DNA of 26,481 nucleotides from a virus. The stretch lies in IMG/VR virus record IMGVR_UViG_3300020160_003103, positions 1 through 26,481 of that record; one strand, given 5' to 3'. How positions within the stretch are numbered: position 1 is the first letter of the stretch; each line of letters starts with the position of its first letter. Of this stretch, positions 4,526 to 6,959 are shown in pieces. Position numbers and translations under genes: made by a program. The notes below the pieces were generated by a model. It saw nothing but the letters and a program-made list of their open reading frames with translations. It made no database searches and was not told where the DNA came from.

Positions 4526-4555
4526 ATTTTACCACTTCTCTTCCTTCCATGTCAA
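4526..4555 (-). promoter_or_regulatory. Sigma70-type early promoter candidate
   Basis: A CTTGACA -35 and a TAAAAT -10 are separated by 18 bases, overlapping the last codons and stop of the mom-like gene. The CTTGACA start is shared with three other early promoters in the window. The -10 is the weakest of the set. Confidence 0.45.
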
Positions 4556-5149
4556 GCGTTTTTTCAGTTCTTTATCAAATATCATAAGGTATCGGTGTTT
4601 CCTACTTCTTTCTCTCCATTCACCATCCAATCCTTTAGTTGGCCCTCTAGAGTGTTTTATAAAAGAACCATCGGATTGTTTAATCCAAAAATCTTTTTTT
4701 GGATCAGTCATACCGTAGTAAGTAAAATTACAAGCTCTGTATATAGTTCCAGAGTGGTGATTAGCATCAGCGTAGCTAAGAATACAAGAAACGCGGACAT
4801 CTTTTCTAAACCTCTTTATACAACGACTGACGAACCAAGATGTGATATTATACTCTTCTTTTTGAATATCAGGATGTATACAAAGTCTTGACAACTCGTA
4901 TATTCCTTCTTGTTGATTTCTTTCTAGTCCAAAAGCACCTACGGCAATTTCTGGAACTGGGAGAGTACTGAAAATGCAAGCACCAACAGAGCCGCCAATA
5001 TTAAGTACATCTGTGAATGATTTGCGGTAAAGTGAGTAATTGTATCCACTTTTGAAATCCTTCGATTCGTCTTTAAGATAATGATGAGTATAAAGAAGTT
5101 CTTTGATTTCTTCTTTACCTACTCTATCTATATAAAAATCTGATTTCAT
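4529..5149 (-). CDS. Mom-like GNAT-fold DNA modification protein
   Basis: 206 aa, ATG start. Residues 85-93 (YELSRLCIH) and 125-146 (SYADANHHSGTIYRACNF, then YYG) match the core of phage Mu Mom, which has SYAD followed by G-x-IY-x-A-x-x-F. The C-terminal R-KHRY motif is also common in phage Mom relatives. Mom proteins have a GNAT acyltransferase fold and convert adenine in phage DNA to a carbamoylmethyl derivative that resists restriction enzymes. I infer a related base modification or, more cautiously, an acyltransferase; the chemistry cannot be read from sequence. It is the last gene of the accessory island, 9 bases after a small gene and followed by a terminator. It has no obvious signal peptide or membrane segment. 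Confidence 0.72.
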   Translation of the reverse strand: MKSDFYIDRVGKEEIKELLYTHHYLKDESKDFKSGYNYSLYRKSFTDVLNIGGSVGACIFSTLPVPEIAVGAFGLERNQQEGIYELSRLCIHPDIQKEEYNITSWFVSRCIKRFRKDVRVSCILSYADANHHSGTIYRACNFTYYGMTDPKKDFWIKQSDGSFIKHSRGPTKGLDGEWRERSRKHRYLMIFDKELKKRLTWKEEKW

Positions 5150-5893: not shown

Positions 5894-6574
5894 TTATTTA
5901 TTTCTTGTATAATACAATCTACCTGGTTTCCATTCTTCACCTGGACATTCTCTTTTCATTACATTTGATTTGCCATCATTCCACCACTTTAGACCCTCTC
6001 TTCTTTTTCTCATTTTTTCTTTTGTTTCGTCAGTATGTTTAGTTCCCAATCTATAAGTATTTCCAGTATTAATTTCTTTACATCTTTCTCTACATTTTTT
6101 CGACAGTGGTTTTCCCTTTTTACTTTCACTTATTTTTTTGGCGTGTTCTTCAGTGATTATCATATTTCTTCCAGTATTTGCTTGTTTTATTTTAGCAATT
6201 ACTTTATCACTATGTTTTTTTCCATAAAATGGATTATTTTCACCTGACATTATTTTACTTTTCCTCATTCTAGAACTTTCATATAATCTAGAGTTAATAT
6301 ATCTATTTTTATGATATTGATTACTGGCGCTCATATTACAGTATGCAAAAATCATTTTTTGAGTTTTCCAATTTTCAATACCATATCTATTCAAATAAAT
6401 TTTTTCTAACAATGCGTGTGCAACAGAATGTTCTCTTGCTGTAAGTACCACAATTCTATTGTTTTTTCCAAAAATACTTTTTGGAAAGGTATGATGTTTT
6501 TCTATATAACCTTCGGGAGGAGTTCTATTCTCCGCTTTCCTGATAAGTCTACAATAAATTTTTAAATAATTCAT
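5894..6574 (-). CDS. HNH homing endonuclease with NUMOD3-like repeats
   Basis: 226 aa. An HNH-type core is visible at residues 24-60 (IEKHHTFPKSIFG, then VVLTAREHSVAHALLEKIY), followed by DNA-binding NUMOD3-like units: GENNPFYGKKHS (about 112-123), a second around 134-156 and a third around 171-195. The C-terminus (KWWNDGKSN, GEEWKPGR) is typical of phage-encoded homing nucleases. Such free-standing enzymes cut related genomes lacking the gene and spread by repair. It lies between tRNA-Leu and tRNA-Thr, a classic insertion area. The catalytic histidines H27/H28 are present, so it is probably active. Two TATAAATA late-promoter motifs and a strong RNA structure precede its start. Confidence 0.85.
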   Translation of the reverse strand: MNYLKIYCRLIRKAENRTPPEGYIEKHHTFPKSIFGKNNRIVVLTAREHSVAHALLEKIYLNRYGIENWKTQKMIFAYCNMSASNQYHKNRYINSRLYESSRMRKSKIMSGENNPFYGKKHSDKVIAKIKQANTGRNMIITEEHAKKISESKKGKPLSKKCRERCKEINTGNTYRLGTKHTDETKEKMRKRREGLKWWNDGKSNVMKRECPGEEWKPGRLYYTRNK

Positions 6575-6584
6575 TTCTACTCTA

Positions 6585-6651
6585 TGGTCGGCACTATTAT
6601 TTATAATAAAATAGAGGGACTTTCACCCTCTTCCTGTTAGTTTGCCGACCA
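6585..6651 (-). promoter_or_regulatory. Structured leader (three-way junction) before the HNH gene
   Basis: A 9-bp perfect inverted repeat (TGGTCGGCA at 6643-6651 on the minus strand, TGCCGACCA at 6585-6593) encloses two hairpins: AGAGGG/CCCTCT with a 7-base loop (6613-6631) and the palindrome TATTAT-AA-ATAATA (6595-6608). The structure ends 10 bases before the ATG. A CTCTAT strand (6611-6616) can alternatively pair with the ATAGAG (6580-6585) that precedes the start codon. See the findings for the proposed switch. Confidence 0.5.
6598..6605 (-). promoter_or_regulatory. Inner late promoter (TATAAATA) for the HNH gene
   Basis: A perfect T4 late-promoter octamer, inside the second hairpin of the leader. 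With T4 geometry the start would be about 6592, giving an 18-base leader that begins within the 3' arm of the large stem and therefore cannot form it. Confidence 0.55.
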
Positions 6652-6661
6652 CAGGTATTAT

Positions 6662-6669
6662 TATTTATA
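6662..6669 (-). promoter_or_regulatory. Outer late-promoter motif (TATAAATA) at the end of tRNA-Leu
   Basis: A second perfect octamer that overlaps the last bases of tRNA-Leu. The two motifs share an extended direct repeat, TATAAATAATA then R-T-R-CC. A start near 6656 would place the large stem at the very 5' end of the transcript. It could be a fortuitous match created by duplication. Confidence 0.4.
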
Positions 6670-6741
6670 GGCGTGGTGGGATTCGAACCCACACTTTATT
6701 GATTTTAAGTCAATTTTCTCTGCCGGTTGGAATACACGCCC
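6668..6741 (-). tRNA. tRNA-Leu (anticodon TAA) lacking a long variable arm
   Basis: Acceptor GGGCGTG pairs with CACGCCT (the first pair is G-T). Anticodon stem ATTGA/TCAAT carries loop CTTAAAA, anticodon TAA, reading UUA. The T arm is GTGGG-TTCGAAT-CCCAC. The D arm has three pairs (TTC/GAA) and a C-A mismatch, as in leucine tRNAs, but the variable region is only AAAGT, five bases. CCA is not encoded. A consensus sigma70 promoter is 33 bases upstream. Confidence 0.9.
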
Positions 6742-6752
6742 AAAAAAAAAAC

Positions 6753-6959
6753 TTACGCTTTGTAAGTAGTAGGATTATACTTGAGATACTCAAAGAATGT
6801 CAACTTCATCTCCTTTTCACTCATCCCACAGTTCTTAGCGGCGGTTGGTAAGTTCCAACGAGCACGAAACAAGTTCTCATTTGCTTCCTTCACATTCTCT
6901 GGTGTTGTTTTCACTGGGTCTTCTTTCAGTGCCTTGTAGTTAATGCGATAAGGATTCAT
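6753..6959 (-). CDS. Small conserved cyanophage protein
   Basis: 68 aa, starting MNPYRINYKALKEDPVKTTPENV. The middle and C-terminus (ARWNLPTAAKNCGMSEKEMKLTFFEYL) look like a small helix-turn-helix-type helical bundle, but no DNA-binding role can be claimed. I recall similar small proteins next to tRNAs in T4-like cyanophages; function is unknown. The ATG at 6959 begins 59 bases after the preceding 60-aa gene. Its last 17 codons carry a complete sigma70 promoter that drives tRNA-Leu. Confidence 0.72.
   Translation of the reverse strand: MNPYRINYKALKEDPVKTTPENVKEANENLFRARWNLPTAAKNCGMSEKEMKLTFFEYLKYNPTTYKA
6774..6803 (-). promoter_or_regulatory. Sigma70-type early promoter for tRNA-Leu
   Basis: Both hexamers are perfect: TTGACA, 18-base spacer, TATAAT. 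The predicted start is near 6767, 26 bases before the tRNA. The whole promoter lies inside the coding sequence of the 68-aa gene, where it is read as LTFFEYLKYN. Confidence 0.75.

Follow-up and report, generated by a model that had tools for sequence, protein, structure and literature searches.

As selfish DNA cutters, homing endonucleases have to spare the phage that carries them. In the IS10 RNA-OUT/RNA-IN pair and in the antisense RNAs of plasmid copy-number control, a short hairpin RNA pairs through its loop with the 5' end of a selfish-gene mRNA. RNA control is also known for phage homing endonucleases. For T4 gene e and I-TevI, a late promoter lies inside a structure into which long early transcripts fold, whereas late transcripts lack its 5' strand (PMC3014915). 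According to the 2010 review of T4, functional characterization had yet to reach any small trans-acting RNA of this phage, and the hope was that relatives would suggest candidates (PMC3014915). In the T4-like cyanophage S-PM2, CfrI is an RNA of ~225 nt antisense to psbA and a homing endonuclease gene, and NATAAATA is the reported late promoter (PMC2984593). Among cyanophages, CfrI is the closest earlier case in which a regulatory RNA is linked to a homing endonuclease (PMC2984593). The paper on cyanophage S-SRM01 mentions endonucleases and a psbA intron, and neither promoters nor terminators (PMC8557907). Here, we describe a leader that, by its sequence, is a real, conserved and RNA-based element and very probably a control cassette. 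It is apparently undescribed; our search of the open-access literature found no account of it.

The window is the whole stretch of DNA that we analyzed, a 26-kb virus record (26,481 nt) with T4-like cyanophages among its relatives. The leader occupies the minus strand at 6669-6572, between a tRNA-Leu and an endonuclease gene (Table 1). It reads TATAAATA, five bases, the outer predicted start, CCTG, arm A, ACAGG, a terminator hairpin and a T-rich tail. Its second half reads TATAAATA, five bases, the inner predicted start, arm A', TAGAGTAGAA and ATG. Both starts were derived from the T4 rule, by which the late motif TATAAATA spans -13 to -6. The original prediction had placed a 9-bp inverted repeat around two hairpins before the nuclease gene, with a late promoter motif between its arms and a start within the 3' arm. 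The repeat is indeed exact (TGGTCGGCA, 6651-6643, with TGCCGACCA, 6593-6585, minus strand), the enclosed hairpins are one terminator-like and one weak AT hairpin, and the inner start falls on the first G of the 3' arm. As RNA, this helix (P2) grows to 12 bp in the window, with one G.U. That prediction did not include the P1 hairpin (CCTG..CAGG), nor did it recognize that the middle hairpin looks like a terminator and that the outer TATAAATA would serve as a promoter.

Table 1. Features of the leader and its surroundings in the window.
Feature	Position	Strand	Basis or remark
Sigma-70 promoter TTGACA-18-TATAAT	6774..6803	-	12/12 match, consensus only; upstream of tRNA
tRNA-Leu(TAA)	6667..6742	-	ARAGORN, Rfam; directly upstream of leader
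Outer late promoter motif TATAAATA, predicted start A6656	6662..6669	-	T4-type motif; relatives
P1 hairpin, CCUGU (6655-6651) / ACAGG (6637-6633)	6633..6655	-	Arm A mostly in its loop
Arm A CUGUGGUCGGCA, 5' strand of P2	6643..6654	-	12 bp with 6593-6582
Intrinsic terminator hairpin, AGAGGG (6631-6626) / CCCTCT (6618-6613), then ATTTTATTA	6613..6631	-	Terminator scan
Inner late promoter motif TATAAATA, predicted start G6592	6598..6605	-	Motif; 92/92 relatives
Arm A' UGCCGACCAUAG, 3' strand of P2, first nucleotides of predicted endonuclease mRNA	6582..6593	-	
Purine-rich short stretch GAGTAGAA before start codon	6575..6582	-	TAGAGTAGAA / TAGAATAGAA conserved before ATG
HNH-type homing endonuclease, NUMOD3 motifs, 226 aa	5894..6574	-	Pfam NUMOD3 5.9e-12; PHROG 655 homing endonuclease 4e-33

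Note that TATAAATA occurs three times in the whole window, two of them in the leader, and that three is also the chance expectation. The motif is therefore no proof by itself, and our argument is built on conservation. Folding of the leader, which the original prediction had proposed, gave -32.1 kcal/mol with RNAfold (z = -6.0; 0/200 shuffles as good). Of two finer parts of that prediction, one was not confirmed and the other is not needed. The suggested pairing of CTCTAT (6616-6611), which is the 3' strand of the terminator hairpin, with ATAGAG is not conserved; in relatives whose terminator is of this kind, the sequence at that place is CCCTCC. A duplication, suggested from two TATAAATAATA-R-T-R-CC copies, need not be invoked: both motifs are predicted late promoters, and the spacers vary freely from copy to copy. 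Elsewhere in the window (4529-5149, minus strand), a 206-aa protein matches the Mom family (Pfam 2e-19). Mom is a DNA-modification protein known from phage Mu.

Sequence comparison identifies this leader as one copy of a widespread cassette of freshwater-type T4-like cyanophages. Using pattern scans, endonuclease homology and a covariance model, we gathered at least 92 distinct copies in viral contigs, with six in the sequenced cyanophage S-SRM01 (MW015081). The homology search with the window endonuclease returned 33 loci, most with the same leader. Two pattern scans that required neither outer motif nor arms yielded 99 stretches, of which all but one with a readable leader carried the outer TAAATA and a complementary arm. 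The covariance model detected several copies per phage: nine in one 136-kb contig, after one copy matched on both strands was counted once instead of as a tenth, and six and five in two others. It scores the window leader at 83 bits (E = 2e-14), a match by construction since the window is among its 49 rows. Model R1 had no match in T4, Aeh1, KVP40, RB16, P-SSM2, S-PM2, Syn9 or S-SKS1, and a pattern search of bacterial genomes likewise had none.

The order of elements is constant among the copies: outer late promoter, P1 with the 5' arm, terminator, inner late promoter, 3' arm and start codon. An outer (A/C)TAAATA at fixed spacing is present in 92/92 distinct elements, and its exact spacing argues for function; an inner TATAAATA, as a motif, lies between the arms in the same proportion (92/92). 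The terminator hairpin and T-rich tail are found in the copies read, with stems that differ between copies. There were two exceptions. L079 is a decayed copy. In L007 (upstream of 406), the arms do not match, yet the nuclease gene behind them is intact; this leader may have arisen by recombination of two elements or be a chimera of the assembly. Two further leaders, those upstream of 1116 in L009 and of 1501 in L017, are unrelated in sequence and have no clear terminator; they retain TAAATA at the outer position and a hairpin, together with a loop complementary to the 5' end of the mRNA (-20.3). L033 and L034 have a simpler leader directly before the nuclease gene, a single AT-rich hairpin with TATAAATA in its loop, as do L032 and L036; in this, the four resemble T4 gene e.

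The two arms are matched to each other within each copy. P2 is an RNA helix of 12-16 bp in nearly every copy, built from 75 different arm pairs. Across 51 distinct copies, the helix formed with the own partner averages -23.4 kcal/mol (range -26.6 to -19.7), compared with -10.8 for swapped partners, and none of 10,000 partner permutations was better than -13.4. For 92 copies, the corresponding means are -23.8 and -10.0. Two-sided changes affect 9/15 pairs in an alignment of 28 copies, in which 98.1% of cells are paired, and covariation of P2 plus terminator is 0.379, against 0.141 in shuffled alignments and at most 0.08 when slid. Over all P2 helix positions, there are 91 G.U and only 1 A.C, which shows that selection acts on a sense-strand RNA and not on a DNA repeat. 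P1 covaries too (0.394 versus 0.247 in shuffles), with 94.6% of cells paired in the type-B alignment and an energy of -7.9 for own versus -5.2 for permuted partners. Since P1 and P2 share their 5' strand and both covary, the two helices should compete in the long RNA; in L110, L131 and L030, the strands are altered together. Folding predicts P1 for every one of 91 short RNAs, and the minimum-energy structure of the read-through RNA contains P2 in 91/91 elements, in line with the expectation that read-through RNA can fold the arms together.

We consider it probable, with moderate confidence, that the cassette silences read-through transcripts in cis and that it also produces a terminated RNA of 50-70 nt able to bind the endonuclease mRNA in trans by base-pairing at its 5' end. 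Early read-through transcripts from upstream would stop at the terminator. Those passing it would fold P2, the ribosome-binding stretch would be abutted and partly covered, and no early nuclease would be made. Such read-through is plausible in the window because an early-type promoter lies upstream of the tRNA, and this sigma-70 promoter is its likely source. Late in infection, the inner promoter would give a translatable mRNA with a 5' UTR of 20-24 nt. Up to this point, the scheme is similar to that of T4 gene e and I-TevI. The outer promoter would simultaneously give the 50-70-nt terminated RNA, presenting arm A in a hairpin, and pairing of this short RNA in trans with the nuclease mRNA 5' end would keep nuclease synthesis low. 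The promoters and the terminator of the cassette are motif predictions. The trans step is new, and we infer it from the conservation of the outer promoter, P1 and the terminator, none of which a switch acting only in cis needs.

Several features fit this scheme. The predicted outer and inner starts each fall where a complementary stretch begins, and the helix begins at about -1/+1 of the inner start. The conserved complementarity joins two stretches of ~16 nt, one counted from each predicted start, with a predicted mean gain of -14 kcal/mol on pairing of short RNA and mRNA. Among the hallmarks of small regulatory RNAs, a promoter and a terminator of its own are present as sequence motifs, and there is conserved complementarity to a target mRNA whose leader adjoins in cis. 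RNA pairing probably restrains the nuclease gene, although P2 covers the ribosome-binding stretch only in part: it ends near -8, within the purine-rich stretch, and leaves the AUG free. In silico, the mean unpaired probability at -12..+6 falls only from 0.52 to 0.44 with P2.

The cassette combines traits of the known systems with several of its own. It resembles T4 gene e and I-TevI in having a late promoter motif between the strands of a helix. In those systems, however, the RBS itself is in the stem, and the part of the review cited here does not describe an outer late promoter, a terminator or P1 (PMC3014915). Each is also a single gene, whereas the cassette is a module common to unrelated genes. 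Aeh1 mobE and T4 segB are likewise free-standing homing endonuclease genes with an inhibitory RNA structure, but no paired two-promoter layout is reported for them in that part of the review (PMC3014915), and R1 does not match either phage. With CfrI, the cassette has in common that a candidate regulatory RNA of a T4-like cyanophage is linked to the gene for a homing endonuclease (PMC2984593). The regulatory RNA predicted here is instead short and encoded upstream, and both predicted RNAs lie on the same strand as the gene, which follows a tRNA. RNA-OUT and the plasmid antisense RNAs come from the opposite strand, whereas here two complementary segments would be transcribed from one strand. 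What appears new is therefore a modular cassette with two late promoters, a terminator, hypervariable matching arms and a predicted short RNA. As such it is a trans-acting RNA candidate of the kind hoped for from relatives of T4, and the cultured phage S-SRM01, with its six copies, allows testing.

A switch acting only in cis is a possible but rather unlikely alternative. Read-through RNA would fold P2 and go untranslated, RNA from the inner promoter would lack the 5' arm and be translated, and the outer late motif, P1 and terminator would be insulation or leftovers. This is close to the early-off/late-on logic of the original prediction, which drew on I-TevI. Part of it stands. RBS hairpins control T4 e, soc, 49 and I-TevI, Aeh1 mobE and probably segB (PMC3014915), P2 is conserved, the predicted inner start marks where the 3' arm begins, and the tRNA has a perfect sigma-70 promoter upstream. 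The distant relatives L032 and L036 have only the hairpin with TATAAATA in its loop, and several S-SRM01 copies sit within small-ORF arrays that resemble early-gene clusters. The remainder fits less well. The outer TAAATA, with its fixed spacing, is a late motif as well, which predicts that some late transcripts also contain the 5' arm. In addition, the terminator between the arms is conserved. A purely cis-acting switch leaves unexplained the nucleotide-exact spacing of the outer TAAATA, its carriage to new sites and the separate covariation of P1, a helix that competes with P2. The late promoter motif inside the structure matches I-TevI, but because the AUG is not buried, this is probably not a simple RBS-in-stem switch of that type.

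Less probable still is that the upstream RNA activates or protects the nuclease mRNA, for example by capping its 5' end against 5'-end-dependent decay. In its favor, the pairing is limited to the first ~16 nt and leaves the AUG open. Against it, stable helices that abut a ribosome-binding stretch are usually inhibitory, and we know of no such precedent among phage homing endonucleases. A DNA-level inverted repeat would suit a mobile and precisely bounded element; it could be a cruciform, the recognition site of an endonuclease or a pair of transposon-like ends. It is highly improbable, since the arms are internal to the element and hypervariable, and G.U pairs are tolerated in them while A.C is almost never seen. 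A ligand-binding riboswitch or other known RNA family, suggested by a structured, conserved leader with a terminator, is just as improbable, given that the helix sequence is hypervariable, the loops are short, there is no conserved aptamer core, and only two tRNAs in the window reach an Rfam gathering score, the few sub-threshold matches being at chance level with no riboswitch among them. We also rejected AACAGGAAGAGGGUGAAAGUCC, which we take to resemble cobalamin riboswitch cores, as such a core: the Rfam scan contained no cobalamin family, and the arms are not conserved.

If the short RNA acts in trans, the diversity of the arms may carry meaning. Each element's outer-promoter RNA might silence its own mRNA through the first 15 nt, and the arms would then form a large set of distinct pairing codes, much as plasmids fall into incompatibility groups. 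We hold this proposal tentatively and with some doubt. In several close pairs, divergence is much greater in the arms than elsewhere: L078 and L103 differ at 32/690 positions in the nuclease and 1/50 in the middle but at 8/28 in the arms, and the window and L005 at 71/678, 6/44 and 14/28, respectively. In three other close pairs with similar upstream flanks, the arms are kept (1, 0 and 0 of 28). If orthogonal trans repression mattered, arms within one genome would be expected to be less alike than arms drawn at random. We saw no such excess (P = 0.14 and 0.47), and there are co-resident copies with shared arms, which counts against the proposal. That the insertion site dictates the arms was rejected, as elements at the hsp20 site show at least three different arm pairs.

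The same leader precedes HNH/NUMOD3, endonuclease VII-like, GIY-YIG and related nuclease families and is therefore a module. Two insertion sites have no outer motif when empty; at the point where the filled alleles L293 and L299 have TAAATA, the empty alleles L294-L296 and L300 read TGAGGACAC. One of these sites reads ..TAT TGA GGACAC when empty and ..TAC TAAATA.. when filled, with two different nucleases at the same point. The other, at a zinc-ribbon gene, follows the same pattern, the outer TAAATA being absent from empty alleles. The element can thus bring its outer promoter along. At the hsp20 site, TAAATA is already present in empty alleles, so the element there landed behind an existing late motif. 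A mobile RNA control module shared across unrelated nucleases would make regulation itself a travelling part.

Leaders and nucleases also appear to recombine. L048 and L005 have identical arms and different nuclease families, and the gene downstream is apparently the same as that of the window. The L339 protein has a different N-terminus (FYVYYSYEPWGRGYIGKRE) and a C-terminal block nearly as in the window nuclease (KWWNDGKSNVMKRECPGEEWKPGRLYY), suggesting domain shuffling between nuclease families with a common leader. L356 (G017:58487-59535) has a perfect leader, with a 15-bp helix and a strong terminator, and lies in the reverse orientation to the remaining copies on its contig. The protein that follows (190 aa) matches no Pfam or PHROG family convincingly; this cargo could be a new nuclease or a non-nuclease. 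Finally, a repeat motif, GACACTTnnnnAACTGGnACA, often followed by a TTGnnn-17-TATAAT-like promoter, occurs in L300, S-SRM01 (W01), seven other records and S-PM2. It is always on one strand per record, and 16/77 endonuclease genes end directly before a version of it.
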